This document shows, in pieces, positions 14,973 to 35,492 of a stretch of 37,515 bases of DNA (position 1 is the stretch's first letter; every line of letters begins with the position of its first letter). The notes beneath the pieces were generated by a model. It searched no databases. It worked only from the letters and a program-made list of their open reading frames with translations, and had not been told where the DNA came from. The DNA is from a virus. Location of the stretch: the IMG/VR virus record IMGVR_UViG_3300048997_000349, positions 1 to 37,515 of that record. One strand, written 5' to 3'. A program made the position numbers and the translations under genes.

Positions 14973-14988
14973 TTGTTCCCGGGAACAA
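14973..14988 (+). repeat. Start-associated palindrome, copy 1 (perfect)
   Basis: TTGTTCCCGGGAACAA lies 14 bp upstream of the -35 box of the first plus-strand promoter. It is the only copy with no ribosome site after it, which points to a DNA-level function. Confidence 0.85.
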
Positions 14989-15002
14989 TCGCACGCATCC
15001 TA

Positions 15003-15041
15003 TTGACGTCCCCTCATTGCGTAGCTTATGCTGTTGTCATA
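15003..15041 (+). promoter_or_regulatory. First plus-strand promoter with operator copy 9
   Basis: TTGACG (15003-15008) and TATGCT (15027-15032, 18-bp spacing; TTATGC at 17 bp) form a promoter. A divergent member of the late operator family, TATGCTGTTGTCATA (15027-15041), covers the -10 box. The same regulator may thus act on both arms. Confidence 0.65.
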
Positions 15042-15084
15042 CGTTGCAGCGACAGCGTTACTAACTGTGAAGAGGTCAACCACC

Positions 15085-15333
15085 ATGCACTACTCCCGTT
15101 ACCTGCACCCGCATTCCGCAGCCTTCAAGCGCGCGCGCAGGCAAGCGGTCTGCGGCGCGGTCAGCCTTGCGGGCAGCGCCGTTGCAACCATCATGTTCCT
15201 TGCGTTTGCCTACGTGCACGACACAGCGCCCGACACGGCCAACGCGCTAGCGGCGCAGCTTGCGCTGCTGGCCGGTAGCGTTGCCTCTGTCGTGCTCGCC
15301 TTCGTGGCGATCCTCGTAGGGCTGGAGCGGTAG
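15085..15333 (+). CDS. Small membrane protein, 82 aa
   Basis: The ATG at 15085 has a GAAGAGG ribosome site; an in-frame ATG at 15028 lies inside the promoter and is rejected. A basic N-terminus (FKRARRQ) is followed by two hydrophobic segments at about residues 22-44 and 57-79, joined by a short polar loop with HDTAPDTAN. It should be an inner-membrane hairpin. As the first gene of the plus-strand arm it may be made very early. No family is recognised. Confidence 0.75.
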   Translation: MHYSRYLHPHSAAFKRARRQAVCGAVSLAGSAVATIMFLAFAYVHDTAPDTANALAAQLALLAGSVASVVLAFVAILVGLER

Positions 15334-15344
15334 AAATAAACTTT

Positions 15345-15411
15345 GTTGACCCCCTTGACAAGGGGTCAACGAACAGACGATACTGAGTCATCGCGTTGAA
15401 CTGTTCAACGC
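15345..15411 (+). promoter_or_regulatory. Promoter with two inverted repeats before the 177-aa gene
   Basis: TTGACA (15355-15360), 18 bp and GATACT (15379-15384) form a promoter. A 9-bp perfect inverted repeat, GTTGACCCC (15345-15353) and GGGGTCAAC (15362-15370), brackets the -35 box. A second palindrome with GCGTTGAA/TTCAACGC arms (15393-15411) stands just before the CAACTGTGAAGAGAGG leader, where other genes have the TTGTTCCCGGGAACAA element. Confidence 0.7.
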
Positions 15412-15436
15412 ACCAACTGTGAAGAGAGGAAACACC

Positions 15437-15970
15437 ATGAAAGCCAAGCCGGAAAGCGAAGTGGCAACGAATACCGCCAAGGAAAAGGCGGCCGCAGCGG
15501 AACTGCTCGGGTACGGCCTGCTGGCCGTGGAAATCGCGGGCGACTTTTTCACAACCTGCGTCGCTCACGTCACCACGGGCTGCACCTTCGAAGGCATGGA
15601 GAACGCGGAACCCGACTTGCTCAAAGTCACGGCCTACCGCAGCGCGAAAAGCACCATCCGCAAGGCGCTGAAGGCCAAGGTCAAGCTGTTGGACGGAGAG
15701 GGCAAGCCCAAGGCCAAGGGTGTGCTAGCGAAAGAGAGCAAGGCGCCCGCCGACGAGAGCGACGAGAGCAGCACGGCGCCCGCCGGGACGGAGCCGCAGT
15801 ACAAGCTCGCGGAACCGCGCGATGTGGTCAAGCTCGCTCTCCTCATGATGAACGAGGCGAGCGACCAAGGGAAAGCGCTGCGCGAGGAATTCGTGGCGGA
15901 CGTCTACGAGGCGAGCAAGGCCGCGCAGGCCGAGCTGGCCGTGCGGACCGAGGTAAAAAAGGCCGCGTAA
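15437..15970 (+). CDS. Hypothetical 177-aa early protein
   Basis: The ATG at 15437 follows GAAGAGAGG. Residues 1-90 form a helical domain with a hydrophobic core (LLGYGLLAVEIAGDFFTTCV). A low-complexity linker of Lys, Ser, Glu and Ala spans about 90-122, and a helical C-terminal part (EPRDVVKLALLMMNEASDQG) ends in Lys/Ala. The gene has a strong private promoter and a stem-loop after its stop, so it is probably abundant. No family is recognised; a nucleic-acid-binding or regulatory role is only a guess. Confidence 0.75.
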   Translation: MKAKPESEVATNTAKEKAAAAELLGYGLLAVEIAGDFFTTCVAHVTTGCTFEGMENAEPDLLKVTAYRSAKSTIRKALKAKVKLLDGEGKPKAKGVLAKESKAPADESDESSTAPAGTEPQYKLAEPRDVVKLALLMMNEASDQGKALREEFVADVYEASKAAQAELAVRTEVKKAA

Positions 15971-15976
15971 GGCTTC

Positions 15977-16000
15977 CAGGGTCCGCGAAAGCGGACCCTG
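15977..16000 (+). terminator. Strong GAAA-tetraloop hairpin after the 177-aa gene
   Basis: CAGGGTCCGC and GCGGACCCTG pair perfectly around a GAAA loop, six bases after the stop. No U-run follows, so it may stabilise the mRNA 3' end or mark a processing site rather than stop transcription by itself. Confidence 0.65.
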
Positions 16001-16014
16001 CCGAATGTCTCCGG

Positions 16015-16030
16015 TTGTTCCCGGGAACAT
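16015..16030 (+). repeat. Start-associated palindrome, copy 2 (one change)
   Basis: TTGTTCCCGGGAACAT, last base changed, lies 27 bp before the ATG of the broken gene at 16058. CTCCGG stands just upstream as a degenerate second half. Confidence 0.85.
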
Positions 16031-16057
16031 TCAGCAGGGTCAACGGGAGAACGCAAC

Positions 16058-16242
16058 ATGCTAGACGCGGTAGACGCACTTGGCACGCTACGCGGGCGCA
16101 TCGCGGGCGCATCGCGGACGATTTGAAGCTTCTGCGCGAAGCGTTGCACGCGAATGCGAAAGGAAAGGCGCACGTTGTGGAGGATCACTTAGAGCGAGTG
16201 ATAGCCGCTCAGGAAGCGGCGTTCGCCAAAACGGCAGGGTAG
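16058..16242 (+). pseudogene. Small gene frameshifted by an 11-bp tandem duplication
   Basis: From the ATG at 16058 (MLDAVDALGTLRGRIA) the frame closes at a TGA after 22 codons. The frame shifted by two continues as DDLKLLREALHANAKG to 16242. The break lies at two exact copies of GGGCGCATCGC (16094-16104 and 16105-16115). Removing one copy joins both halves into one 57-residue helical protein. The start has a GGGAG site. It may be a real recent mutation, a reversible slippage switch or an assembly error. Confidence 0.7.
16094..16115 (+). repeat. 11-bp tandem duplication inside gene
   Basis: Two adjacent copies of GGGCGCATCGC, followed by a partial third (GG), shift the frame of the gene at 16058-16242. 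Confidence 0.9.
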
Positions 16243-16247
16243 GAGAG

Positions 16248-16340
16248 GCGACAGAGCAAAGTCCGGCGGGCGCGTGTCATGGCCGCGCTTAGACTAAAGC
16301 GGGCGCAGATTACTGCGGCCGTCGGGCTTTGCTGTGTCGC
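16248..16340 (+). ncRNA. Structured RNA candidate, 93 nt
   Basis: Arms 16248-16269 and 16319-16340 pair over 22 positions with one G-G mismatch and two G-U pairs. The 49-nt inside holds two more stem-loops: CGCTT/AAGCG around AGACTA (16286-16301) and CGCAG/CTGCG around ATTA (16304-16317). The result is a branched, closed RNA with no open frame, 6 bp after the broken gene and 18 bp before palindrome copy 3. No known RNA family is recognised and no separate promoter is visible. Confidence 0.6.
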
Positions 16341-16358
16341 TGAGAGATTCCTGGGAAT

Positions 16359-16374
16359 TTGTTCCCGGGAACAA
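16359..16374 (+). repeat. Start-associated palindrome, copy 3 (perfect)
   Basis: The element lies 16 bp before the ATG at 16391, with AAGGGGAG as ribosome site. CTGGGAA upstream is a degenerate second half. Confidence 0.9.
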
Positions 16375-16390
16375 ATCGAAGGGGAGTGCG

Positions 16391-16723
16391 ATGGAAGATA
16401 AGCACATCGGAAAGCGCCGCGGATTTGAAGAGATGCGCGAGCGCGATGGCAGGGTGCGAGCGGCAGGCTCGATCGGTTACGCCACGGCCTACGGCGTGCT
16501 GGAAGCGATCGCGGCTCAGCGTGACGAGCGCGACCTAATCCGCACGCTGCAAGGGGAACAGCGCCCGCACTGGCAGGTCGAGCGGCGCGTGCGTGGCGAC
16601 ATTTGGGTTACGGCGGATCGCGCGATGCAGGGCGCGACGATGGCGGAGGCGCAGGACCTGGTCAAGGGCTTGCCCGGGTACCGCGTGGTCCGAGTTTGGG
16701 GGACGCGCCGGCGCGGGCATTGA
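16391..16723 (+). CDS. Hypothetical 110-aa protein
   Basis: The ATG at 16391 follows GGGGAG; upstream in-frame codons lie in the palindrome. The N-terminal half is charged and helical. The C-terminal half (DIWVTADRAMQGATMAEAQDL, then LPGYRVVRVWG) looks like a compact alpha/beta domain and ends in RRRGH. No family can be named. It closes its transcription unit, being followed by a terminator at 16731-16779. Confidence 0.7.
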   Translation: MEDKHIGKRRGFEEMRERDGRVRAAGSIGYATAYGVLEAIAAQRDERDLIRTLQGEQRPHWQVERRVRGDIWVTADRAMQGATMAEAQDLVKGLPGYRVVRVWGTRRRGH

Positions 16724-16730
16724 ATTGCGC

Positions 16731-16779
16731 GCCCCGACAACGACAGGGAGCGTGTCGGTTTCGGTGTCGGGGCTCTTTT
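16731..16779 (+). terminator. Intrinsic terminator
   Basis: GCCCCGACA (16731-16739) pairs with TGTCGGGGC (16765-16773) and is followed by TCTTTT. A smaller CGACA/TGTCG stem fits inside. A related GCCCCGACA hairpin occurs at 19072-19126. Confidence 0.8.
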
Positions 16780-16808
16780 GCGTGCGCGCGCGTTGTCGTT
16801 GTGGGGGA

Positions 16809-16827
16809 ATACGTCCCAGGGACGTAT
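16809..16827 (+). promoter_or_regulatory. Operator-like 19-bp palindrome
   Basis: ATACGTCCC and GGGACGTAT flank one central A in perfect symmetry. It stands between the terminator and the next gene, where a promoter would be needed, and shares the GTCCC/GGGAC core with the main palindrome family. Short CTGAAT direct repeats follow (16861-16880). No clear -35/-10 pair is seen. Confidence 0.5.
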
Positions 16828-16896
16828 ATCCCAAATATGTGCCGGTGACGTATTTAGGAGCTGAATCTGAATCTGATTCTGAACCCGGATCTGATT

Positions 16897-16912
16897 TTGT
16901 TCCCGGGAACAA
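16897..16912 (+). repeat. Start-associated palindrome, copy 4 (perfect)
   Basis: The element lies 15 bp before the ATG at 16928, with the standard CTGTGGAGAG leader. Confidence 0.9.
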
Positions 16913-16927
16913 ACTGTGGAGAGCGTC

Positions 16928-17059
16928 ATGTCATTTCGAATTCAAGCCGTGTACGCGATGCGAACCATTCGCTTCTGCGTGACTGCGGAGAGCGAGCAGG
17001 CAGCATTAGCCAAGGCGCGCAAGGTTGCGAAGCGCGCGCTGAACCTGAGCGTGATCTGA
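16928..17059 (+). CDS. 43-aa basic protein, possibly interrupted by an in-frame TGA
   Basis: The ATG follows CTGTGGAGAG and palindrome copy 4. The product starts MSFRIQAVYAMRTIRFCV and ends in a basic helix (AALAKARKVAKRALNL). After the TGA at 17057-17059 the same frame continues with plausible protein (ISFEVLMGTYGQLTDHPKSR) to a second TGA at 17120-17122. A nonsense mutation or readthrough would explain this. The family is not recognised. Confidence 0.6.
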   Translation: MSFRIQAVYAMRTIRFCVTAESEQAALAKARKVAKRALNLSVI

Positions 17060-17118
17060 ATTTCGTTTGAAGTGCTGATGGGCACCTACGGGCAGTTGAC
17101 CGACCATCCGAAGAGCCG

Positions 17119-17187
17119 GTGACGTTTATTCCGGCGGAGTGGCACACCCAGGCAAGGCCTGTACTCGCGGAGCCGTGGCGAGGTTAG
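17119..17187 (+). CDS. Possible mini-gene, 22 aa
   Basis: A GTG at 17119 overlaps the TGA that ends the extended 16928 frame (GTGA, the usual coupling here). It encodes VTFIPAEWHTQARPVLAEPW. There is no independent ribosome site, so translation would need readthrough of the upstream TGA. It may be the remnant of a longer gene. Confidence 0.3.
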   Translation: MTFIPAEWHTQARPVLAEPWRG

Positions 17188-17209
17188 GGGAGCCGACAAA
17201 GCCGAAGTC

Positions 17210-17296
17210 ATGAGATGGAATTTGGATATCAGCGCAGTCCTTGAACAACAGGCACAGCGTGCCAAGGGACGCCTAAGCGCAGCCGGAACGCTGTAA
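17210..17296 (+). CDS. Possible mini-gene, 28 aa
   Basis: The ATG at 17210 opens MRWNLDISAVLEQQAQRA and ends at a TAA at 17296, 25 bp before palindrome copy 5. A purine-rich GGGGAG lies about 20 bp upstream, farther than usual. The frame is the same as that of the 16928 gene after two stops, so the block 16928-17296 may be one decayed gene. Confidence 0.35.
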   Translation: MRWNLDISAVLEQQAQRAKGRLSAAGTL

Positions 17297-17321
17297 CCCG
17301 GCGGTAGTTCTGTCTCGGGAT

Positions 17322-17337
17322 TTATTCCCGGGAACAA
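17322..17337 (+). repeat. Start-associated palindrome, copy 5 (one change)
   Basis: TTATTCCCGGGAACAA, third base changed, lies 14 bp before the ATG at 17352. TCTCGGGA stands upstream as a second half. Confidence 0.85.
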
Positions 17338-17351
17338 CTGTGGAGCAGGGC

Positions 17352-17492
17352 ATGCAAATCGTTCACCACGTGTCACACGCTGAGCTTGATCGGTTATTTG
17401 CTGCCGTGGCGAAGCCCGTCGAGCATGACGGCGCGCTCGATTGGATCGCGCCGGCGTGGTGGTACCTGATGTGGGCGACGGCAACGCACTAA
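17352..17492 (+). CDS. Hypothetical 46-aa protein
   Basis: The ATG follows CTGTGGAGCAGGGC and palindrome copy 5. The peptide starts MQIVHHVSHAELDRLF and ends with a Trp-rich hydrophobic stretch (LDWIAPAWWYLMWAT), perhaps membrane-active. Its TAA is inside the leader AACTGTGGAGAG of the next gene. The family is unknown. Confidence 0.6.
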   Translation: MQIVHHVSHAELDRLFAAVAKPVEHDGALDWIAPAWWYLMWATATH

Positions 17493-17506
17493 CTGTGGAG
17501 AGCGTC

Positions 17507-17734
17507 ATGGAAAAATTCCAAACGCCGAAGGAAGCGATTCGAGCGCGCGAACAGTGCCGCGCATCTTGCCTGCCTCGGATTAATTGCGCGGCGCTAGATA
17601 GGCTGAGCTTGCTCTCCCATCGGGCAGTCCTCGCGTGCGACCGCGAGGCCGCATTCATCGAAGCGCAGGGTGCCATCGTCAAGGCGCAAATCAGCGGCGC
17701 GATTCAAAGCCGAAGAATTTCGAATCCCGGGTAA
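17507..17734 (+). CDS. Hypothetical 75-aa protein
   Basis: The ATG at 17507 has the standard CTGTGGAGAGCGTC leader but no palindrome, so it is the second gene of the unit that begins at 17352. The product (MEKFQTPKEAIRAREQC) has three Cys and is mostly helical. Its stop abuts palindrome copy 6. No family is recognised. Confidence 0.65.
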   Translation: MEKFQTPKEAIRAREQCRASCLPRINCAALDRLSLLSHRAVLACDREAAFIEAQGAIVKAQISGAIQSRRISNPG

Positions 17735-17750
17735 TTGTTCCCGGGAACAA
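17735..17750 (+). repeat. Start-associated palindrome, copy 6 (perfect)
   Basis: The element starts at the base after the previous stop and ends 13 bp before the ATG at 17764. CCCGGG (17726-17731) lies just upstream and can pair with its left half. Confidence 0.9.
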
Positions 17751-17763
17751 CTGAGGAGAGGTC

Positions 17764-18117
17764 ATGGAATCCAGACCCAAGCTGGTCGAGCTGTTCAAGC
17801 TCGAAGTGCTCGAGCTCTCGCGACTGCACGAGATGTGCGCCCGAGGCAATACGGCGCGAGCGGACAATCTGTTTCAATCCGCGATCCGAGACATGGGCGT
17901 GGTCCGCGGCTCGAAGTTCACCGCTGTACCGGGCGAAGCCACAGCGCTGCAATTCCGCGATTTCTCGCGCATCACGCTACAGGTGCATTTCCCTGCCTCG
18001 CTATGCGCCCTGATACACAGAGCAATCGAGCCGGCGCCCAAGGTCGACGCGCGTCGCATCATCGGCCTCAACGGTCCGCGGCGCGGCACGTTCCACGCGC
18101 AGGGGCGGGCAGCTTGA
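17764..18117 (+). CDS. Hypothetical 117-aa protein
   Basis: The ATG follows CTGAGGAGAGGTC. The N-terminal part (VELFKLEVLELSRLHEM) is a helix with Leu/Val heptads; the rest is mixed and ends in a basic, Gly-rich tail (GLNGPRRGTFHAQG). No known family. The stop overlaps the next gene. Confidence 0.65.
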   Translation: MESRPKLVELFKLEVLELSRLHEMCARGNTARADNLFQSAIRDMGVVRGSKFTAVPGEATALQFRDFSRITLQVHFPASLCALIHRAIEPAPKVDARRIIGLNGPRRGTFHAQGRAA

Positions 18118-18377
18118 GCCCGAGTCCGATCCAAGCCGAGATCCGGCTCGTAATCCAAACGCATGCCCGCTACGACTTCGCGTCGAAGCGCTACCTGCGC
18201 CGGCCAAGCTGGCAGGTCTGGATCGACCAGATCAACGCGCGGGCTCAATACGCGCTGCGCCACCGCGGTCGAAATTCACCTTCGATTCGATTCGGCATTC
18301 GAATCCGGGACGTTGACGGCCTGCTGTTAGTGCAGCCCGTACCGTGCCCCACGCCGCATAGGAGCCCGAGAAAATGA
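18114..18377 (+). CDS. Hypothetical 87-aa basic protein (TTG start)
   Basis: The TTG at 18114 overlaps the TGA of the upstream gene (TTGA), matching the coupling used throughout this region. The product has a helical N-terminus (SPIQAEIRLVIQTHARYDF) and is rich in Arg and Trp (RRPSWQVWIDQINARAQY). A nucleic-acid-binding role is conceivable. An ATG start inside the frame would remove the conserved-looking N-terminus. Confidence 0.55.
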   Translation: MSPSPIQAEIRLVIQTHARYDFASKRYLRRPSWQVWIDQINARAQYALRHRGRNSPSIRFGIRIRDVDGLLLVQPVPCPTPHRSPRK

Positions 18378-18460
18378 AACAAGTAAAGCCGCTAGAACCG
18401 GCCCAATCATTTACCTGGATGCAGCACCCTGCGCCCGCCGCGCGAACCATTCAGAAATAG
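18374..18460 (+). CDS. Mini-gene, 28 aa
   Basis: The ATG at 18374 overlaps the previous stop (ATGA) and has GGAG 9 bp upstream. The peptide is MKQVKPLEPAQSFTWMQH followed by a Pro/Ala-rich end. It has no recognisable family; the coupling is the main evidence that it is translated. Confidence 0.45.
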   Translation: MKQVKPLEPAQSFTWMQHPAPAARTIQK

Positions 18461-18493
18461 CGGAACGCGCAGGTTAGTGCACCCGGCTTGAAT

Positions 18494-18509
18494 TTGTTCC
18501 CGGGAACAA
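18494..18509 (+). repeat. Start-associated palindrome, copy 7 (perfect)
   Basis: The element lies 13 bp before the ATG at 18523 with leader CTGAGGAGAAACC. ACCCGG is found 8 bp upstream. Confidence 0.9.
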
Positions 18510-18522
18510 CTGAGGAGAAACC

Positions 18523-18702
18523 ATGTACTACGCAATGCAATTGACCGAGGGCGTGGCAACGCGCATCGGCCGCATGACGCCCAAGGAGTCGACCGCCATC
18601 AAGATCGCGCAACGGCGCGTCGCCGCGGGCAAGGTGGCCTATGTCGAGCAGTACGGTGTAGGCGTGATCTGGACGCCCAACGCCTCGACCAAGCCGAACT
18701 AG
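18523..18702 (+). CDS. Hypothetical 59-aa protein
   Basis: The ATG follows CTGAGGAG. The product begins MYYAMQLTEGVATRIGRM, has a basic helix (IKIAQRRVAAGKVAYV) and a beta-like end (YGVGVIWTP). It looks like a small complete alpha/beta domain. The family is unknown. The next gene starts after one base. Confidence 0.65.
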   Translation: MYYAMQLTEGVATRIGRMTPKESTAIKIAQRRVAAGKVAYVEQYGVGVIWTPNASTKPN

Positions 18703-18703
18703 C

Positions 18704-18982
18704 ATGTCCTCGGCCACGCTCACGATGACGCAGGAATGGCGCAGAGAACTGCTGCTGGAATGGTGGGGAAGCAAGCGCATCATCCGTTTGGCCCACAAGC
18801 ACGGCCTGTACGAGAGGGCGGCGAAGCAGCGGGCGCGGATGAGGCAGATCGAAAAGCTGTTCTTCCCCGACAGCAACAAAGGCCGATCCCCGACACCGAC
18901 ACCGAAGGCGAAGGCGACAGGAACCGTCGCCCACGGCCCGCGCCGAGCCGAGATCCTCGCGCGAGCTGCATCCAAAACCTGA
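18704..18982 (+). CDS. Hypothetical 92-aa basic protein, HTH-like
   Basis: The ATG lies one base after the previous stop. Residues 8-50 (EWRRELLLEWWGSKRIIRLA, then HGLYERAAKQRARMRQ) could form a helix-turn-helix. The tail is rich in Lys, Pro and Thr. A DNA-binding role is possible. It is the last gene before the large non-coding segment. Confidence 0.6.
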   Translation: MSSATLTMTQEWRRELLLEWWGSKRIIRLAHKHGLYERAAKQRARMRQIEKLFFPDSNKGRSPTPTPKAKATGTVAHGPRRAEILARAASKT

Positions 18983-19008
18983 ATTCCCCCGACAACAACA
19001 GGGTATTA

Positions 19009-19060
19009 AACCAGCCTATAGGCTGGTTTTGCGGCCTCGAAACCAGCCTATAGGCTGGTT
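19009..19060 (+). repeat. Two copies of a perfect 20-bp palindrome
   Basis: AACCAGCCTATAGGCTGGTT occurs at 19009-19028 and 19041-19060, with centres 32 bp apart (about three helical turns). The first copy is followed by TT and could also work as a weak terminator after the 92-aa gene. The spacing suits paired operators or origin sites. Confidence 0.85.
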
Positions 19061-19071
19061 CACGAATTGAA

Positions 19072-19126
19072 GCCCCGACACCGACACCGACTGGTACGCC
19101 ATCCCGGTCTGATTCGGTGCCGGGGC
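19072..19126 (+). other. Long GC-rich hairpin
   Basis: GCCCCGACACCGA (19072-19084) pairs with TCGGTGCCGGGGC (19114-19126) with one mismatch. It resembles the terminator at 16731-16779 but has no U-run. Transcription arrest or an origin-related structure are both possible. Confidence 0.65.
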
Positions 19127-19394
19127 GCGGGGCGGGCGAGGCAAGGTGGCACAACTTGTGCTTTGTCCAAACCAATCCCCTACTCACAAAGTTACCTTTA
19201 AGCGTACGCGGCCGCAGCAAGCTCACTAAAAACACTCCAATATAGAGATACTTAATAACTACTCTTAATCTATATTGTCCTCGCTCCTAATTTCTAAAGG
19301 TCTCAACGATTGGGGTATAGGCCTCACACATTTATTTTTGCATTCCTGTTTCGTGCTTTGTAGCATATCAAGCACTTATGCTCGCCTAGCCGAC

Positions 19395-19403
19395 TTATCC
19401 ACA
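19395..19403 (+). other. DnaA box
   Basis: TTATCCACA matches the DnaA consensus TTATNCACA. It is the only perfect box noticed and lies in the AT-rich non-coding tract. Confidence 0.6.
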
Positions 19404-19557
19404 GGCTGGGCGTCGATCTCCAAGCCGTCCCCCGGCCCCTATACATTTAGAGGGTCCGAAAAAGTTTCAAACCTCGGCCCTTTTCCGATTCCGTAAGCGC
19501 ATCAACACCTTGCGCCGGAAAATGTCCCTCAGGTCACTTACATGTCACGTTGAACCC

Positions 19558-19587
19558 TTGACCTCACATGCTAAGAACCTTTATAAT
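19558..19587 (+). promoter_or_regulatory. Strong sigma70-like promoter
   Basis: TTGACC (19558-19563), 18 bp and a perfect TATAAT (19582-19587) are present. It reads into an attenuator and then into the gene string starting at 19680. Confidence 0.75.
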
Positions 19588-19612
19588 TCAGTTTCTTGCT
19601 ACATTTCTTTTT

Positions 19613-19635
19613 CGGGGCTTCGGCCCCGTTCTTTT
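19613..19635 (+). terminator. Leader attenuator with UUCG loop
   Basis: CGGGGC and GCCCCG pair around TTCG and are followed by TTCTTTT. The hairpin lies about 20 nt after the expected transcript start and overlaps the first bases of palindrome copy 8, so most transcripts should stop before the first gene unless antitermination occurs. Confidence 0.8.
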
Positions 19636-19649
19636 GTTCCCGGGAACAA
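19634..19649 (+). repeat. Start-associated palindrome, copy 8 (perfect)
   Basis: The element lies 30 bp before the ATG at 19680. The extra length holds a second half-site downstream (TTCCGGGG) before the usual CAACTGAGGAGAG leader. Confidence 0.9.
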
Positions 19650-19679
19650 TTCCGGGGACCTCAACTGAGGAGAGCGCCA

Positions 19680-19796
19680 ATGGGTGAATTCGGACGCAGA
19701 CGCAGCCGGCGTGACTGGTCGCGCCGTGAGGTACTGGCGCAGCGCCACGCGCTGACCGTGGCCTGGCTCAACTCCCTGCGCCGGGCGGCGCGATGA
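19680..19796 (+). CDS. Arg-rich 38-aa protein
   Basis: The ATG at 19680 follows CTGAGGAGAGCGCCA. The peptide MGEFGRRRSRRDWSRREV and a short amphipathic helix give a very basic product, probably RNA- or DNA-binding. It is the first gene after the attenuator, and its Arg-rich N-terminus is reminiscent of lambdoid N-type antiterminators, but this is only a resemblance. Its stop overlaps the next start (ATGA). Confidence 0.6.
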   Translation: MGEFGRRRSRRDWSRREVLAQRHALTVAWLNSLRRAAR

Positions 19797-20011
19797 ACCG
19801 CTCCCAAGCTGGCACGCCGGGCTGGTACGAGCTGAGCTTTAACGGACGGTTCCTGTGCGAAGGCGAGGACATGGCGACGTTTTGCATCGCCGCTCGCAAC
19901 CTTGGCGCCGGCGCCGTCGTGAAAGAGGTTCGCCACCCGGAACACGGCCACGAGCCGTTCGGGTTCCAAGCGGACGGCCCAGCCCTGCGGGCGATTGCGG
20001 GGCAGCAGTGA
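19793..20011 (+). CDS. Hypothetical 72-aa protein
   Basis: The start overlaps the preceding stop. The product holds a compact alpha/beta pattern (WYELSFNGRFLCEGEDMATF, AGAVVKEVRHPE). No family is recognised. It belongs to a five-gene coupled string running from 19680 to 20710. Confidence 0.65.
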   Translation: MNRSQAGTPGWYELSFNGRFLCEGEDMATFCIAARNLGAGAVVKEVRHPEHGHEPFGFQADGPALRAIAGQQ

Positions 20012-20710: not shown

Positions 20711-20717
20711 TACCCTT

Positions 20718-21440: not shown

Positions 21441-21441
21441 A

Positions 21442-21512
21442 GCAGTGGTGGCGGAATTGGTAGACGCGGGTTGCAAGGCCTTTTCTAGGTTCGAGTCCTA
21501 GCCACTGCACCA
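21442..21512 (+). tRNA. tRNA-like gene, Leu-type body, degenerate anticodon arm
   Basis: The acceptor stem GCAGTGG/CCACTGC (7 bp), a T-arm with CTAGG/CCTAG around TTCGAGT, a Leu-type D-arm (GCGGAATTGGTAGACGC) and an encoded CCA end are all intact. Only 17 nt lie between D- and T-arms, too few for a normal anticodon arm plus variable loop. The best fold is GGTT/GGCC around GCAA (or GGG/CCT around an 8-nt loop with TTGCAAGG). No anticodon can be assigned safely (GCA or CAA). It starts one base after the methyltransferase stop. Confidence 0.65.
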
Positions 21513-21513
21513 T

Positions 21514-21723: not shown

Positions 21724-21739
21724 TTGTTCCCGGGAACAT
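21724..21739 (+). repeat. Start-associated palindrome, copy 9 (one change)
   Basis: TTGTTCCCGGGAACAT lies 27 bp before the ATG at 21767. A downstream second half (TTTCGGGG) precedes the CAACTGAGGAGAGAG leader. Confidence 0.9.
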
Positions 21740-21766
21740 TTCGGGGCACCAACTGAGGAGAGAGCG

Positions 21767-22159: not shown

Positions 22160-22168
22160 TGTCCGGAA

Positions 22169-22184
22169 TTGTTCCCGGGAACAA
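22169..22184 (+). repeat. Start-associated palindrome, copy 10 (perfect)
   Basis: The element lies 14 bp before the ATG at 22199 with the consensus leader CTGAGGAGAGAGTC. CCGGAA upstream is a second half. Confidence 0.92.
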
Positions 22185-23746: not shown

Positions 23747-23762
23747 TTGTTCCCGGGAACAA
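23747..23762 (+). repeat. Start-associated palindrome, copy 11 (perfect)
   Basis: The element lies 14 bp before the ATG at 23777 with leader CTGTGGAGAGTGCT. CCCGGGGA lies directly upstream. Confidence 0.92.
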
Positions 23763-24016: not shown

Positions 24017-24032
24017 CTGTTCCCGGGAACAA
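24017..24032 (+). repeat. Start-associated palindrome, copy 12 (one change)
   Basis: CTGTTCCCGGGAACAA, first base changed, lies 14 bp before the ATG at 24047 with leader CTGCGGAGAGAGTC. CCCCGGG lies upstream. Confidence 0.9.
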
Positions 24033-24842: not shown

Positions 24843-24858
24843 TTGTTCCCGGGAACAA
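24843..24858 (+). repeat. Start-associated palindrome, copy 13 (perfect)
   Basis: The element begins one base after the barrel gene stop and lies 16 bp before the ATG at 24875. Here the leader reads TTTTGAGGAGAGG. Confidence 0.92.
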
Positions 24859-25572: not shown

Positions 25573-25588
25573 TTGTTCCCGGGAACAA
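25573..25588 (+). repeat. Start-associated palindrome, copy 14 (perfect)
   Basis: The element lies 23 bp before the ATG at 25612. The extra bases hold a short second half (TCGGG) before CAACTGAGGAGAGAGTC. Confidence 0.92.
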
Positions 25589-26189: not shown

Positions 26190-26191
26190 CG

Positions 26192-26715: not shown

Positions 26716-26731
26716 TTGTTCCCGGGAACAA
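26716..26731 (+). repeat. Start-associated palindrome, copy 15 (perfect)
   Basis: The element lies 15 bp before the ATG at 26747 with leader CTGAGGAGAGCGTC. CCCGGA lies upstream. Confidence 0.92.
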
Positions 26732-28174: not shown

Positions 28175-28410
28175 GCCTTCCTGACAACGTCAAGATCGGC
28201 GAGCGCTACTACTTCGCCTACCCCGAGCGGTTCGTCACGCTGCCCGCCTACAGCGCGCACCGAGGCCAGCTAGTCACGGTGCTTCGCCCTATCAGCCCTA
28301 AAGAGGGCGGCCAGGGCGGAGGCATGGAGCGCATTTTCGTGGTTCAGGCTGAAGACGGCTGGATCGGACACGCGTTCGCAAGCGAACTTCTTCCCAGGAG
28401 CAAATCATGA
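28171..28410 (+). CDS. Hypothetical 79-aa protein
   Basis: The ATG at 28171 overlaps the previous stop. KIGERYYFAYPERF, HRGQLVTVLRPIS and MERIFVVQAEDGWIGHAFA outline a small SH3-like beta fold. The family is not named. Confidence 0.65.
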   Translation: MSLPDNVKIGERYYFAYPERFVTLPAYSAHRGQLVTVLRPISPKEGGQGGGMERIFVVQAEDGWIGHAFASELLPRSKS

Positions 28411-29395: not shown

Positions 29396-29438
29396 CGAGT
29401 ACCAGCCGCCGCGCGCTTGGGTGACTCTGGGCGAGTAA

Positions 29439-29583: not shown

Positions 29584-29599
29584 TTGTTCCCGGGAACAA
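29584..29599 (+). repeat. Start-associated palindrome, copy 16 (perfect)
   Basis: The element lies 31 bp before the ATG at 29631. A clear downstream half (TTCCCGGGGG) precedes the CAACTGTGGAGAGAG leader, the best example of the long form. Confidence 0.92.
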
Positions 29600-29630
29600 T
29601 TCCCGGGGGCGCAACTGTGGAGAGAGCCCG

Positions 29631-30185: not shown

Positions 30186-30189
30186 CACC

Positions 30190-30507: not shown

Positions 30508-31109
30508 GAACCGCAACCGTCAACGTATTCCAGTTCGGTGAGCTCGCACCCCGCGCCAAGGAGAAGGCGAGGGCTTGGTACCGCCAAGGCGCGTTCGACC
30601 ACGACTGGTGGGAGTTCACCGTCGAGGATGCCAAAACGTGTTTCAAGCTGGTCGGCTTCGACATCTCCAATGTGCCGTTCAGCGGCTTCTCGTCGCAGGG
30701 CGACGGCGCCTGCTTCGAGGGTACGTGGCGCGCGCGGGACGTGAAACCCGGCGAGCTGCAGAAGCACGCGCCGGAGGACGAAGAGCTGCATCGGATCGCA
30801 GCCGGCTTCGAAGCCGTCGCCAAGCAATACCCAGGGGCGTTCTTCAAAGTCCGTCACTCCTGGCATCACTACCACCAGTACAGCGCGACGTTCGAGTTCG
30901 AATTCCTCGACAACGAGGGCAACGAGATCGAGGACGTCCGCACCGCGGAAAAGGATCTGATCGACCTTGCTCGTGCGGCGATGAAGTGGACCTACCGGCA
31001 GCTCGAGAAGGAGTACGAGTACCAAAGCTCGGATGAGCAGGTCGACGTCAGCATCGAGGCGAACGAGTACGAATTCACTGACGACGGAAAGAGATGGACA
31101 CGCACATGA
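30504..31109 (+). CDS. Conserved phage protein with FSGFSSQGDGACFEG motif, 201 aa
   Basis: The ATG overlaps the previous TGA. The order AKEKARAWYRQ, HDWWEFTVEDAKT, FSGFSSQGDGACFEGTW, DEELHRIAAGF and a histidine-rich strand (HSWHHYHQYSATFEFEF) is typical of a widespread phage family. Some databases call it antitoxin of a toxin-antitoxin stability system, a label I would not trust. Function is unknown. An acidic tail ends the protein. Confidence 0.75.
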   Translation: MRTATVNVFQFGELAPRAKEKARAWYRQGAFDHDWWEFTVEDAKTCFKLVGFDISNVPFSGFSSQGDGACFEGTWRARDVKPGELQKHAPEDEELHRIAAGFEAVAKQYPGAFFKVRHSWHHYHQYSATFEFEFLDNEGNEIEDVRTAEKDLIDLARAAMKWTYRQLEKEYEYQSSDEQVDVSIEANEYEFTDDGKRWTRT

Positions 31110-31378
31110 AATTCGACCAAGAATCGAAGGATCTTCTCGCGGGCGCCCGCTTCATCGAGCAACACGGCTTTCCGCCGGACGACCCGCATCCGTTGCGAGC
31201 GATCGCCCGCACGCTGCAGGTCAAGGGCGGTGTGGGATGGAAGAGTCCCGAGCACAAGAGCCGGTACTACAACGCTGCCACCCGCCTGCACGATGCTTGC
31301 GGTATGGACAACTCGGATCTGAGTCCGGCGGAAGCGATCGACTCGCTAGTGGCGGCTGCGTACTGGGAGGTGCCGTGA
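31106..31378 (+). CDS. Hypothetical 90-aa protein
   Basis: The ATG at 31106 overlaps the previous TGA; an ATG four codons earlier lies inside that gene. The product is helical (KDLLAGARFIEQHG, HPLRAIARTLQVKGG, NAATRLHDACGM). The family is unknown. Confidence 0.6.
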   Translation: MKFDQESKDLLAGARFIEQHGFPPDDPHPLRAIARTLQVKGGVGWKSPEHKSRYYNAATRLHDACGMDNSDLSPAEAIDSLVAAAYWEVP

Positions 31379-31539
31379 ATCACCGCCTCTTCATCAGCCA
31401 TCAGATCGAGTTCGACCTGTGCCTCGACGCAATGAAGGAGGCGCACGCGAACCGGCACAAAGAGGACTTCATGAAAGCGTTCAACCGCTTCATTGGTCGG
31501 ATTTGCCGCGCCAAGGAAGAAGGCGGGCTGGGTCAGTAA
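31375..31539 (+). CDS. Hypothetical 54-aa protein
   Basis: The GTG at 31375 overlaps the previous TGA. Helical peptide (HQIEFDLCLDAMKEAHAN, KAFNRFIGRICRAKEE) with a Gly-rich end. It closes a four-gene string. The family is unknown. Confidence 0.6.
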   Translation: MNHRLFISHQIEFDLCLDAMKEAHANRHKEDFMKAFNRFIGRICRAKEEGGLGQ

Positions 31540-31590
31540 AAGTTTGCGCCGACCTCGGCGCGCTTCGTAGAATGAAATCTCTCGGGCGAT

Positions 31591-31606
31591 TTGTTCCCGG
31601 GAACAA
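31591..31606 (+). repeat. Start-associated palindrome, copy 17 (perfect)
   Basis: The element lies 14 bp before the ATG at 31621 with leader CTGAGGAGAGAGCA. CTCGGGCG lies upstream. Confidence 0.92.
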
Positions 31607-31620
31607 CTGAGGAGAGAGCA

Positions 31621-31767
31621 ATGGCAACCAAGCCACCCGTTCGTGACGTCCGTACCGAATTCGAACCCACGCGCCGCACGCCGGCCGAGACCGCCGCCGA
31701 GATCAAGCGTCGCACCGCCCGCGCGAAGCGCATCAAGGAGCAGAACGCGACGCGAGGCACGCTGTGA
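31621..31767 (+). CDS. Basic 48-aa protein
   Basis: The ATG follows CTGAGGAGAGAGCA. Product MATKPPVRDVRTEFEPTRRT then a basic helix (AAEIKRRTARAKRIKEQNA). It is very basic and probably binds nucleic acid. Its stop overlaps the next gene. Confidence 0.6.
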   Translation: MATKPPVRDVRTEFEPTRRTPAETAAEIKRRTARAKRIKEQNATRGTL

Positions 31768-31997
31768 ACGACAAGCCCGTTGTCCAATTCAAGCTGTCCG
31801 TACCCGACACCGACAGCCTTCGCGACATGATTCGTCGTGATCATGCCACCGCGCTGTTGGAAATTGCTCGGCTGAGTTCATTTCTGCCTGCCGATCGCAA
31901 CGAAGCGTGGCATGGAGCGAACTCCAGCATTCAACGTGACCTGCACAAAACAGAACATCTCGCCGAGATCTTCTCGGTCACGCTGGCGAAGAGCTGA
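31764..31997 (+). CDS. Hypothetical 77-aa protein
   Basis: The GTG overlaps the previous TGA. Strand VVQFKLSVPDTDSLRDM, then helices ATALLEIARLSSF and HKTEHLAEIFSVTL. The family is unknown. Confidence 0.6.
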   Translation: MNDKPVVQFKLSVPDTDSLRDMIRRDHATALLEIARLSSFLPADRNEAWHGANSSIQRDLHKTEHLAEIFSVTLAKS

Positions 31998-31999
31998 AC

Positions 32000-32374
32000 A
32001 TGGCCTCCAAAGACGGATCCAAGCTTCGCGCCGACCTGGACAACTTCACCGGGACGGAGCAATACCATCGGCAGCCGCTGTACCGGAACATGCTGTACAC
32101 GGACGGCGTCGAGTATTTCTGCGAGAACGCCGGCAACGGCGCCTACTGGTTCCTCGACATCATCGGCACCGAAGTCCACGCCATTCAGCGGAAGGGCGAA
32201 GAGTTTCTGAACATCGTGCTGCTTGTCACCGCGGATGAGCAGGCCGCGATCAAGGTGGATGACGGCAATGGCCGTGAGCTCTTCCTGCGCACGATCGACT
32301 GGACGGACTGTCCCGCGGGTGAGTGGCAGTTCTTCCTCGAGAACGACGTCCTCTGCCTGCCGAGCGAGCGATGA
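32000..32374 (+). CDS. DUF6876-type phage protein, 124 aa
   Basis: The ATG lies two bases after the previous stop. The order DLDNFTGTEQYHRQPLYRNM, LYTDGVEYFCENAGNGAYWF, DDGNGRELFLRTIDWTDCP and NDVLCLPSER matches the DUF6876 family of phages and mobile elements. Its function is not known. It is one of the few conserved families in this arm. Confidence 0.75.
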   Translation: MASKDGSKLRADLDNFTGTEQYHRQPLYRNMLYTDGVEYFCENAGNGAYWFLDIIGTEVHAIQRKGEEFLNIVLLVTADEQAAIKVDDGNGRELFLRTIDWTDCPAGEWQFFLENDVLCLPSER

Positions 32375-32598
32375 AGGCGGTTCGTTTTGTTTTGGCAGCG
32401 TTCGGCCGAGGGCTTTGGGTGGTTGCGTACCCGTTCTTTGCCATCGCTGTCCTGATCTGGATGGCGACGCTCGAGTTCTGCATCTCGCCCCTCTTGTGGC
32501 TGCTGCTCGGACAGCCAGGAGTGAGGCAGGTGCGAGCGGCTCTGCGCCGCGCGTGGAATTTTCTTCACTGGTACGACCGGATCTGGAGCGAGCGATGA
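32371..32598 (+). CDS. Small membrane protein, 75 aa
   Basis: The ATG at 32371 overlaps the previous TGA. A long hydrophobic region (LWVVAYPFFAIAVLIWMATL, FCISPLLWLLLG) can cross the membrane once or twice; the tail is basic (RQVRAALRRAWNF). Function unknown; no holin signature is evident. Confidence 0.65.
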   Translation: MKAVRFVLAAFGRGLWVVAYPFFAIAVLIWMATLEFCISPLLWLLLGQPGVRQVRAALRRAWNFLHWYDRIWSER

Positions 32599-32780
32599 GC
32601 GACGGCATCCGTCGGTTCACCGTAACCGAGACCTTCCGCACCCGGGCTGGCCTACGGCCCTCCGAGTTCATGAGCACGATCACGACGGCTGAGTGGAACA
32701 AGGTGGACGCGCTCGCCGTGGATCGCTCCGTCGTGCTTCGAGAAGGCGCTGACAAAGTCACGTTCACGAGGACGACGTGA
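32595..32780 (+). CDS. Hypothetical 61-aa protein
   Basis: The ATG at 32595 overlaps the previous TGA. Short alpha/beta protein: RRFTVTETFRTRAG, TAEWNKVDALAVDRSV. The family is unknown. Confidence 0.6.
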   Translation: MSDGIRRFTVTETFRTRAGLRPSEFMSTITTAEWNKVDALAVDRSVVLREGADKVTFTRTT

Positions 32781-33088
32781 ATACGACGCAGGAGACCTGT
32801 GATCTGCTGCAGGCGATGCTCGTCGAGGTGGGCCTGCCTACGGATGTCGTCGCCAAAGCGAAATCGGGCTCGTGCTACCTGCGCTTCGACGATTCGCGCA
32901 TGGGGCAGATCCGGATCGGCGATCACGACGAGCGCGAGTGTTACGGCTATCGGTGGCACATACGGCTCGACATCGACGAGGCCTTCGCCGATGACTCGAA
33001 AGGGCACAACCAGTTCTTCTACCCCGCCGAGAGCCTCGGCGAAGCGGTGATGCACATGCTGAGTTATAGCGCGAAGATTTCGCGCTGA
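32777..33088 (+). CDS. Hypothetical 103-aa protein
   Basis: The GTG overlaps the previous TGA. CDLLQAMLVEVGL helix, then GSCYLRFDDSRMGQIRIGDH and YRWHIRLDIDEAF strands, then a helix SLGEAVMHMLSY. A small alpha/beta domain. The family is unknown. Confidence 0.65.
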   Translation: MNTTQETCDLLQAMLVEVGLPTDVVAKAKSGSCYLRFDDSRMGQIRIGDHDERECYGYRWHIRLDIDEAFADDSKGHNQFFYPAESLGEAVMHMLSYSAKISR

Positions 33089-33105
33089 GTACCCCCTCCC
33101 GGGAA

Positions 33106-33121
33106 TTGTTCCCGGGAACAA
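33106..33121 (+). repeat. Start-associated palindrome, copy 18 (perfect)
   Basis: The element lies 15 bp before the ATG at 33137 with leader CTGTGGAGAGAGTCA. A full CCCGGGAA (33098-33105) lies directly upstream, the best example of the short form with an upstream half. Confidence 0.92.
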
Positions 33122-33136
33122 CTGTGGAGAGAGTCA

Positions 33137-33505
33137 ATGCCGAAAAAACCAGCAGGCCCAAGCACGCCCGTCGTTTTCCGTAGCAAGCTCGGCACCGCCA
33201 AGGGCGTCGAGCGCAGCCGCATCTGGATCGAGGGCAAGCGCCTCGTCGATGCCGGCTTCAAAGTCGGTTCGTATTTCACCGTGTTCGGGGTGAGCGGCGG
33301 CCCCGATTCGAGCCTCGGCTTGCTTCTGGCGAAGCCCGGCCAGGTGTTCAGCAGAGCACCTTCCAAGGTCACAGGCACGCGCACCCGGCCGGTGATCGAC
33401 ATCACCGGCGAGATTGTTCGCACGATGTTTGGCGTGCACGGTACGCACGTGGACGTGGTGTTCTCCAAGGGCGAGATCACTATCCGGCGGGCGAAGGAGG
33501 CGTGA
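33137..33505 (+). CDS. SymE/AbrB-like swapped-hairpin protein candidate, 122 aa
   Basis: The ATG follows the consensus leader. RSRIWIEGKRLVDAGFKVGS followed by YFTVFG and, at the end, PVIDITGEIVRTMFG and VDVVFSKGEITIRR. The RLWIEGKRL..AGF..G opening and the closing I.I strand are found in SymE- or MazE-like beta proteins and in related phage proteins. It might bind DNA or RNA. The call is tentative. Confidence 0.5.
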   Translation: MPKKPAGPSTPVVFRSKLGTAKGVERSRIWIEGKRLVDAGFKVGSYFTVFGVSGGPDSSLGLLLAKPGQVFSRAPSKVTGTRTRPVIDITGEIVRTMFGVHGTHVDVVFSKGEITIRRAKEA

Positions 33506-33735
33506 TGGACGAGCCTACCTTCACCTTGGCCGTCAAGCTCTCGCTGGTTGTGAGCGGCTGGGCCAACGCTAAAAACAAACTGACGCGCCAGAGCATTGCT
33601 GAGCTGGTTACCAGTCGTCTCAAGTTAGGCGACATTCAAGACCTCATCGACGAGGTTCAGGTCATCGAGGTGATCGACGGTAAGGATCGTCTCGTCGTGC
33701 CGGTCGATGCACTAGGGAGCTGGAACAATGGATAA
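33505..33735 (+). CDS. Hypothetical 76-aa protein
   Basis: The ATG at 33505 overlaps the previous stop (TGATG). LAVKLSLVVSGWANAKNKL, AELVTSRLKLGDIQDLID, then a short sheet VIEVIDGKDRLVVPV. The family is unknown. Confidence 0.65.
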   Translation: MDEPTFTLAVKLSLVVSGWANAKNKLTRQSIAELVTSRLKLGDIQDLIDEVQVIEVIDGKDRLVVPVDALGSWNNG

Positions 33736-34267
33736 CACCACACGCATCAACCTCGAGCGGCGCATCGTCAAGGCCCTCATCCGCCACATGAGCGCGGCTG
33801 GCTTTTCCGTCAGCAACGTTTTCGACAGCGGGGTCCACTACTTCCCTGCCACGATTGAAGGCGTGCTCGACGCGGTATTCGCGGTCGACGAGGCCTCGCT
33901 CCGGTTCGTGCAGACCTCGAAGCTTGCCGCCTACGACAAGGCGCGCAAGGTCAACGAGCGCCCGAGCCAGCAGGATTATGACGGCTTCCACATCGGCGGC
34001 GAGTGGGGCAAGGCCGAGCATGGCGTTCTGCTCGTTCTCGGCAACGGCGAGGACGTGATTTCCGACTGGAACTATTTCTCGGACGATCGCGACGGCTTCA
34101 ACGCCGCGATGGCCGCGTTCGACCAGGAGAAGGCGATCAGCTACGAGGCGCTCGAAACTGAGGTAGCCAAGCTGAGGTCGGCTCTCGAGACGATCGAGGG
34201 TGGCGGCAGCACGGACGAGGGCGCCGAATGGGCGCGCGGCGTGGCCTCGGCAGCTCTGCGGCCATGA
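33728..34267 (+). CDS. Hypothetical 179-aa protein
   Basis: The ATG at 33728 overlaps the previous gene by eight bases, with GGAG upstream. RRIVKALIRHMSAAGFSV, then GVLLVLGNGEDVISDWNYFS, a strand-turn also seen in other phage proteins, and a C-terminal coiled helix (YEALETEVAKLRSALETI). The family is not named. Confidence 0.65.
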   Translation: MDNTTRINLERRIVKALIRHMSAAGFSVSNVFDSGVHYFPATIEGVLDAVFAVDEASLRFVQTSKLAAYDKARKVNERPSQQDYDGFHIGGEWGKAEHGVLLVLGNGEDVISDWNYFSDDRDGFNAAMAAFDQEKAISYEALETEVAKLRSALETIEGGGSTDEGAEWARGVASAALRP

Positions 34268-34959
34268 TCTTCTCCGACGCATTCCCAATCACATTCAAGG
34301 GCCAGCCCGCGCAACTGCGCGTGGTGCGCAACGACGGCTTCTGCTGGGGCCGGCTCGTCCTGAAGAGCGGCGAGGAGCTCGACATCGAGACGGGGCGTGA
34401 CCAGTACGAGCGCGCCGATGAGGATGCCGCTGTGGCGTTTGAGAACGCCGCTAAGCGGGGAAACGTCGAGCCTGCGGTTGGCGAGTACAGGATCGGCTGG
34501 GCAGACCAAACGGAGGAAGTAATGAAAAGCAAACCGAAGGAGCAACGCGACGTCGGGGTCAGTGCGACGTTCATGGTGTCGAAGCAGTTTCTGTCCGACA
34601 TTCTGGCCGGCATGGCCGAGACTTGCCCGGAGATGGTGGGCTGGTTCGGCGACGACAAGACGGTGATCGAGCGGATCGCCGAGGGCGAGGACTGGCTCTC
34701 GCCTCTCTCCGTGATCCGCATCACCGGCAGGTACGACCGGAAAGAGCACGACGAGGGCACGAGGCTTGGCAAGGCTACGCTCGACTTCGCCGCGGTGCAG
34801 CTCGCCCTCACCCGGCTCTGCACCTACAAGGCTCTCGACGACTCGATCCGCGGGCGAATCATGCTCGGCCTAATGGACAACGACTGCGGCCATATCGATT
34901 CGGAAGCCGCCGACGTGCTCGCGCAGCTCGCCATTTTCGGGGAGGTGGTCTATGGCTAA
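34264..34959 (+). CDS. Hypothetical 231-aa protein with strong internal start
   Basis: The ATG overlaps the previous TGA (ATGA). The first 86 residues (PITFKGQPAQLRVVRNDG, GRLVLKSGEELDI) are one small domain. An in-frame ATG at 34522 (MKSKPKEQRDVGVSATF) is preceded by CGGAGGAAGTA, an almost ideal ribosome site, so a separate 145-residue product is likely made too. The second part is helical (TFMVSKQFLSDILAGMAETC). The family is unknown. Confidence 0.6.
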   Translation: MIFSDAFPITFKGQPAQLRVVRNDGFCWGRLVLKSGEELDIETGRDQYERADEDAAVAFENAAKRGNVEPAVGEYRIGWADQTEEVMKSKPKEQRDVGVSATFMVSKQFLSDILAGMAETCPEMVGWFGDDKTVIERIAEGEDWLSPLSVIRITGRYDRKEHDEGTRLGKATLDFAAVQLALTRLCTYKALDDSIRGRIMLGLMDNDCGHIDSEAADVLAQLAIFGEVVYG

Positions 34960-35176
34960 GCCAAAGCAGGGCGTGGATCTCGCTCGGCTCTACCACAGGA
35001 TCGATGACCGTCAGCTCGGCACGGTCCTCGCCGCACTGAGGCTGTACCAGGAGAACCTGACGCTGTCGGACGAACCGATGCCCCAACGCTTTACCGATAT
35101 CTCCACGAACAGCGGCGCCCACGTCGAGCTGAGCGTAGAGGAAATAGATCTGCTTTGCGAGCAGCTCAATAGTTAG
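34952..35176 (+). CDS. Hypothetical 74-aa protein
   Basis: The ATG overlaps the previous gene by eight bases, with GGGGAGG upstream. RIDDRQLGTVLAALRLYQEN, then VELSVEEIDLLCEQLNS, all helical. It closes the string begun by copy 18. The family is unknown. Confidence 0.65.
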   Translation: MAKPKQGVDLARLYHRIDDRQLGTVLAALRLYQENLTLSDEPMPQRFTDISTNSGAHVELSVEEIDLLCEQLNS

Positions 35177-35225
35177 ACCCCTCCAGCTTTCACGTTGGAG
35201 GTAAACGAAACTTTGCAGTGGAAGG

Positions 35226-35266
35226 AACGGGCCGGGTGCCCACAGTCGCCCGGCCCGTTGTTGTTT
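35226..35266 (+). terminator. Intrinsic terminator
   Basis: AACGGGCCGGG (35226-35236) and CCCGGCCCGTT (35249-35259) form a perfect 11-bp stem followed by GTTGTTT. A smaller CCTCCA/TGGAGG hairpin lies upstream (35180-35201). Confidence 0.85.
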
Positions 35267-35285
35267 CAACTCGAGGAGACCAACC

Positions 35286-35492
35286 ATGAGCATGCGGACG
35301 CTTGTCGTCACTTTCATTCTCGTAATCATTGCCATACCGTTTCTGTTCCAGAAGCGGATCGACGTGTTCGCGGCCGTTATCGCCGAGCAGCGCTCGCGCG
35401 AAATTTTCTGCGAGCAGGCGCTGCGTAATCGCTTGCTCGTGTGGTGCGATCCGACGCTACCCGGCGTCAAAAAAGTTCCCGGGAACAACTGA
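35286..35492 (+). CDS. Single-span membrane protein, 68 aa
   Basis: The ATG at 35286 follows CGAGGAG. One transmembrane helix is clear (RTLVVTFILVIIAIPFLF), then a helical outer part (AAVIAEQRSREIFCEQAL). The coding region runs through palindrome copy 19, which supplies the last residues VPGNN and the stop. The family is unknown. Confidence 0.65.
   Translation: MSMRTLVVTFILVIIAIPFLFQKRIDVFAAVIAEQRSREIFCEQALRNRLLVWCDPTLPGVKKVPGNN
35473..35488 (+). repeat. Start-associated palindrome, copy 19 (12-bp core)
   Basis: AAGTTCCCGGGAACAA keeps the 12-bp core and right side but has AA at the left end. It lies inside the end of the 68-aa gene and 14 bp before the ATG at 35503. Confidence 0.85.

Follow-up and report, generated by a model that had tools for sequence, protein, structure and literature searches.

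Why does one stretch of phage DNA carry nineteen copies of a single short palindrome, nearly all of them just ahead of a start codon, and what might read them? The stretch is IMG/VR virus record IMGVR_UViG_3300048997_000349, analyzed as the whole record of 37,515 bases (the window), and the element is the 16-letter palindrome TTGTTCCCGGGAACAA. An earlier note on this DNA, made from the sequence alone, had proposed a start-associated control system. Comparison with relatives of the phage points to a set of operators.

Palindromes ahead of early genes in the window

A scan of both strands of the whole window gave 14 exact copies of TTGTTCCCGGGAACAA, four with one change, and one with two changes, the same 19 copies that the earlier note had counted. 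Shuffled sequence is expected to give 0.14 matches (largest count, 1). A 20th match, at 28388, has three changes and is probably due to chance. The copies are confined to 14973-35488, within an arm of about 60 small plus-strand early genes (15085-37356 in the gene model), nearly all without known function. None was found in the opposite structural arm (944-14793, minus strand), which is annotated with head genes, portal, terminase, a helix-turn-helix (HTH) gene, an A1-like protein, and HNH.

All copies are given on the plus strand. The first (14973-14988, exact) is in the region from which the two arms diverge. It and the exact copies at 16359-16374, before the gene at 16391-16723, and at 16897-16912, where the flanks are also conserved, have orthologs in the nearest relative described below. 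The exact copy at 17735-17750 begins immediately behind the previous stop codon, that at 24843-24858 has the previous stop one base away, and that at 19634-19649 stands behind a long non-coding stretch. The other exact copies, which were recovered by the scan and by the placement test given below, are at 18494-18509, 22169-22184, 23747-23762, 25573-25588, 26716-26731, 29584-29599, 31591-31606, and 33106-33121. Copies with one change are at 16015-16030 (scan) and, from both scan and placement test, at 17322-17337, 21724-21739, and 24017-24032. The two-change copy (35473-35488) precedes a short open reading frame (ORF) at 35504.

Eighteen of the 19 copies end 13-37 nt ahead of a start codon. The proportion is that originally claimed, although the range had been put at 13-31 bp; the copy at 16015 has its start codon 37 nt away. 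Included in the 18 is the copy at 35473, which is 15 nt upstream of the 25-codon ORF. When only the predicted genes of a mechanical gene model were used and all 20 matches (including that with three changes) were counted, 17 of the 20 ended 5-60 nt before a start. Random placement under the same test gave a mean of 3.0 (maximum 9) in the arm and 6.0 (maximum 14) in the intergenic bases of the arm. Some copies had been said to begin directly behind the previous stop, and four do so with 0-9 intervening bases (17735, 22169, 24843, and 25573).

Behind 16 of the 19 palindromes is the leader CTGWGGAGAG (at most one to two changes allowed). The leader had been described as joined to 18 of the 19. 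It is indeed common but is separable, being 9-15 nt distant from the palindromes at 19634, 21724, 25573, and 29584 and occurring without a palindrome at 17493 and 26998. Because the leader also occurs alone, palindrome and leader are two modules. The leader, for example CTGAGGAGAG at 17751-17760 (plus strand), is an extended ribosome-binding site. An Rfam search gave no match above the gathering score.

Replacement of the palindrome among relatives

By its terminase, portal, and major head protein the window belongs to a group of siphophages with genomes of about 80-90 kb. Named members are Vibrio SHOU24, Caulobacter Seuss, Achromobacter JWF and 2-1, Xylophilus Lumi, and Pseudomonas Lana and PMBT3. 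Given these genome sizes the window is probably less than half a genome, so a regulator may be encoded elsewhere in the genome. A similar arm of small unknown genes adjoins the terminal repeats in Seuss, JWF, and Lumi. The 85.7-kb Methylobacterium plasmid pMaq22A_3p is also a phage genome of this group and carries TGTACGnnnCGTACA nine times (L257-L258); thus, the group includes at least one phage maintained as a plasmid. Relatives were gathered by alignment of five terminases, which gave 80 IMG/VR loci, whereas a single TerL query had given none.

The nearest relative, G001, is a 7-kb fragment with a terminase and portal 63% identical to those of the window. Its palindrome is TTGTTGCCnnGGCAACAA, present five times. 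The first early-arm site of G001 and window site 14973 have the upstream flank AAAGTGTACCCGTCA in common, G001 site 6742 and window site 16897 share the tract GAATCnGAATC, and G001 site 6206 is upstream of a homologue of the window gene at 16391-16723. The leader CTGAGGAGAG is also kept. Every G001 copy, however, is altered: TTGTTC has become TTGTTG in both halves and two bases have been added at the center, such that the half-sites are replaced rather than conserved. The simplest cause of a change in all copies with flanks and leader retained would be a trans-acting binder of changed specificity. The earlier note had counted it as evidence against a control system if close relatives lacked the 16-mer at matching positions. 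Literally, the 16-mer is absent from G001, but a different palindrome occupies these positions, which strengthens the operator reading.

Palindromes of the other relatives were found by an unbiased count of spaced dyads in each genome against shuffles (shuffle maximum 1-4). The same layout is present in at least 14 relatives, cultured and metagenomic, mostly with a palindrome of their own. Among cultured phages these are TTGGTCTnAGACCAA in SHOU24 (13 copies), GTTCGTnACGAAC in both JWF (12 copies, those in the terminal repeats being counted twice) and 2-1 (nine copies), TTACTAGnCTAGTAA in Lumi (seven), and TTTACCnnnGGTAAA in Seuss (seven). The IMG/VR relatives carry CTAGACGTCTAG (G002, 23 copies), TGTCCAnnTGGACA (G003, 21), GGTTACnGTAACC (G005, five), TCTGTAnnTACAGA (G006, five), TCCCCGnnCGGGGA (G007, nine), GTGCAGnnCTGCAC (G008, eight), and GTCCCGn4CGGGAC (G009, 15), and a second set of such relatives has GGTTCAAnTTGAACC, GTGCGAnnnTCGCAC, and GTTCACnGTGAAC. 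In JWF, Lumi, SHOU24, Seuss, G002, G003, and G009 many copies are immediately ahead of the ribosome-binding site of an early gene, and intragenic sites occur in SHOU24, 2-1, and G009. No such repeat was found in Lana and PMBT3, in which the halves were searched, or in about eight IMG/VR relatives. Scans of IMG/VR with the exact 16-mer and with the 16-mer plus leader gave four matches, none in a similar setting. Note that three loci (L079, L090, and L092) have a second repeated palindrome, AACTATCnGATAGTT, beside GTGCAGnnCTGCAC, and that a region of G003 (L105) at about 45.7-46.0 kb recalls plasmid origins, with iteron-like tandem repeats TCGATGCATGGGTGTTGT and, behind them, a small Cro/YdaS-like HTH gene.

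Among relatives sharing a palindrome, the half-sites are conserved at matching positions. Between JWF and 2-1 the half-sites of orthologous sites are identical at 72 of 72 nt, with flank identity of 0.73; between L245 and L246 the figures are 60 of 60 nt and 0.86. The spacer differs at most aligned sites. On the coding strand of G009 the four-base spacer is GAAA and TTTC in eight copies each. These would be different RNA loops but are one DNA site in two orientations, which argues for recognition as double-stranded DNA. From these alignments we conclude that the frozen half-sites, the drifting spacers and flanks, and the lack of spacer strand preference are best read as marks of recognition by a dimeric protein on DNA rather than of an RNA hairpin. 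The earlier proposal of a start-associated site for a dimeric regulator is therefore well supported by the relatives.

Operator, promoter, or RNA element

The explanation we favor, to which we assign a probability of about 0.6, is that a rapidly re-specified DNA-binding regulator, dimeric and sequence-specific, uses the palindrome as its operator, the copies forming a stoperator-like operator set for early transcription. We infer the protein, its origin, and the sign and timing of its action. Most likely it would be encoded by the phage, either outside the fragment or among the early genes without assigned function. Bound copies would lie between a few upstream promoters and the early-gene leaders, so that the protein could act on passing RNA polymerase at many points. 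Its action would most likely be negative, in that it would silence the early arm in the manner of stoperators or shut it off, and as its specificity changed all operators of the genome would change along with it. For the whole group of 80-90-kb siphophages, we regard it as an even bet that most early units are preceded by a palindromic operator peculiar to the phage, all copies in a genome being replaced together as a putative regulator is re-specified. If so, every member would have a silencing or immunity type of its own with no CI/LexA-type repressor.

Several points weigh against this explanation. A near-fixed distance to the ribosome-binding leader is not needed for a roadblock, and the 2-bp change in half-site spacing seen in G001 needs a flexible protein. 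Half-site conservation was weaker in three other pairs (0.86 for L246 and L247, in which one site is badly aligned, and 0.96 within L248-L250). No cognate regulator was identified. A Peptidase_S24 protein was absent from all 23 group records, complete relatives included (the window being a fragment), and a tyrosine integrase was present in only four of the 23; hence, a lysogenic repressor is not obvious. Moreover, the E. coli-like promoter consensus used below may not be the right one for the host.

The best candidate promoters, each a consensus match only, are on the plus strand at 15003-15032 (TTGACG-N18-TATGCT, a putative early promoter), 15355-15384 (TTGACA-N18-GATACT, before the gene at 15437-15970), and 19558-19587 (TTGACC-N18-TATAAT, 11 of 12 positions). 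Judged from their locations, transcription from these three would cross most of the palindromes. The main competing explanation, possible although unlikely, is that a phage-specific promoter or activator site is built around each palindrome, with a transcript starting just behind it for each short gene unit. The sites do lie at unit boundaries, some of them right behind a stop codon or a terminator-like hairpin (window 19613-19628, just ahead of a palindrome, and several in G003 and SHOU24), and a Brevibacillus phage motif has been proposed to be promoter-like (PMC4909266). However, -10/-35 elements are absent at a fixed distance from the sites, perfect dyad symmetry and the intragenic copies of relatives would be unusual for promoters, and with leaders as short as 13-37 nt a transcript start and the ribosome-binding site would be crowded together. 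Sigma-70 promoters were not enriched at the sites (10.5%; other starts, 9.3%; random positions, 7%), the consensus being E. coli-like and perhaps not that of the host.

We consider it improbable that the palindrome acts as RNA, by a hairpin ahead of the ribosome-binding site that steers translation or mRNA processing. The element directly precedes the leader and its left half is able to pair with the leader GGAG. A CCCGG-like stretch that could pair with the palindrome is present, at variable spacing, within 18 nt upstream of 12 of the 19 sites but of only two of 43 other starts. (The stretch is not conserved in G001.) In G003 (L103-L107), unlike the other phages tested, flanks outside the core differ in sequence and pair beyond permuted flanks (p<0.0005). 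Against this, the window flanks show no pairing past the core (p=0.88), the single changes in window copies are uncompensated (compensation was seen only in G003), and adjacent GC hairpins and terminators are in no general excess over controls. To these is added the even use of GAAA and TTTC spacers in G009. Translation control by palindrome-leader pairing was rejected, since the pairing with the ribosome-binding site is lost in G001. The RNA stem offered earlier as an option is thus disfavored.

Sites for genome maintenance (partition, condensation, or recombination), near starts only because free DNA is found there, seem very unlikely. One relative is a plasmid, and recombination between Cluster O repeats produces deletions (PMC4351075), but the 17 of 20 sites before starts exceed chance placement in intergenic DNA, and the sites are restricted to the early arm.

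The half-site order TGTTC-N4-GAACA equals a LexA motif named in the earlier note, which had raised a LexA/CI-like phage regulator. That suggestion is not supported: Peptidase_S24 is lacking in the 23 records, and the 16-mer is near chance level in 84,980 bacterial genomes (87 contigs). The exception is one Acidobacteriota metagenome-assembled genome (JASJCB01) with 12 exact 16-mers on 10 contigs (L187, L194, L201, L205, L213, L216, L220, L231, L233, and L234), twice as a pair 42 bp apart, which is probably an unrelated regulon or repeat. Exploitation of a host regulator, LexA-like or other, through its standard site is the least likely explanation of all, for despite the motif order and the JASJCB01 copies it is at odds with the near-chance frequency in genomes and with the many unrelated palindromes among relatives.

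In the search for the putative regulator, HTH_3 was found in seven of the 23 group records with no pattern. The HTH gene at 12140-12505 was rejected, as its homologues lie in the terminase module of relatives both with and without palindromes. A putative candidate is the second early-arm gene (15437-15970, plus strand, 177 aa), whose homologue in G001 comes first in the early arm. In several relatives palindromes, often paired, stand upstream of the first early gene. This gene was not retained, having no family match, and the fold of the window homologue was not resolved (mean predicted local distance difference test score, pLDDT, 41.7). The window gene has no 16-mer upstream but has two other inverted repeats there, GTTGACCCC-N8-GGGGTCAAC at 15345-15370, which spans the -35-like TTGACA, and GCGTTGAACTGTTCAACGC at 15393-15411.

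Elsewhere in the early arm, the long non-coding stretch at 18983-19679 is a possible replication origin. It contains two 20-bp palindromes AACCAGCCTATAGGCTGGTT (19009-19028 and 19041-19060), a DnaA-box-like TTATCCACA at 19395, and the strong promoter-like site at 19558. A tRNA-like remnant (GCAGTGGTGGCGGAATTGGTAGACGC...CTAGGTTCGAGTCCTAGCCACTGCACCA) at 21442-21512 was called by neither ARAGORN nor Rfam.

Comparison with known systems

Elements of this kind are known. Microbacterium phages of Cluster EG (Hyperion, Squash, and OneinaGillian) have 8-10 intergenic 18-bp inverted repeats among their right-end genes, of unknown function (PMC7302621, PMC9224216). These are typically 14-22 bp before start codons, and their form, GATCAACC-N2-GGTTGATC, shares its design with that of G001 and others found here. 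The window has the same placement: several near-identical short inverted repeats before starts, in one arm only. In contrast, the Cluster EG phages are actinobacterial, their repeat has another sequence, and their reports describe no replacement of the motif among relatives. Cluster O mycobacteriophages (Corndog) have 34 dyads of the 17-bp TGTTCGG-N3-CCGAACA, for which a dimeric binder was proposed and the function is unknown (PMC4351075). The invariant half-sites and A/T-rich, unoriented spacer resemble those seen here, and TGTTC is common to the window half-site. However, about one-third of the Cluster O copies are intragenic, the authors report no close link to starts, and one motif serves all five phages.

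The resemblance to the stoperators of L5 and the start-associated sequences (SAS) of Cluster K pointed out in the earlier note holds for layout, with the differences in sequence and symmetry that it allowed for. Stoperators of Cluster A (L5) are asymmetric 13-bp sites in one orientation bound by a monomeric repressor (PMC6550527, PMC9283540). Like the sites described here they are many dispersed sites of one regulator, and their sequence diverges between relatives along with the repressor. The window sites are symmetric and have no known repressor, and the G009 spacer has no orientation, which sets them apart from asymmetric sites. In Cluster K, SAS and extended SAS (ESAS) combine a conserved ribosome-binding element with an upstream inverted repeat before early-gene starts (PMC3203893, PMC11373665). 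That system also has two modules and a repeat consensus that differs among subclusters, but the SAS is GGGATAGGAGCCC beside the start codon whereas the leader here is AACTGWGGAGAG. Moreover, the two arms of an ESAS repeat match imperfectly and stand far apart, and the element contains putative SigA promoters, whereas the window sites show no promoter enrichment. Brevibacillus phages SecTim467 and Jenst have about 20 motif copies ahead of genes for replication and metabolism, and their host has none (PMC4909266). The copy number and position ahead of genes are similar, but the motif is described as promoter-like, and the text consulted reports no symmetry. A term search of the Seuss, Lumi, TCUP2199, and Lana papers found no mention of such palindromes.

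Although Clusters EG and O establish the kind of element, its spread through proteobacterial phages, its genome-wide replacement between relatives, and its presence in cultured, testable carriers appear to be new. Dispersed start-associated palindromes had been reported from a handful of actinobacterial phages and had no known function. More than 12 different sequences in one layout, together with a genome-wide swap between near relatives, turn this oddity into a comparative system. As the carriers JWF, 2-1, Lumi, SHOU24, and Seuss are cultured, experiments on the binding protein and on what it does could begin immediately, with the natural palindrome variants as matched specificity controls.

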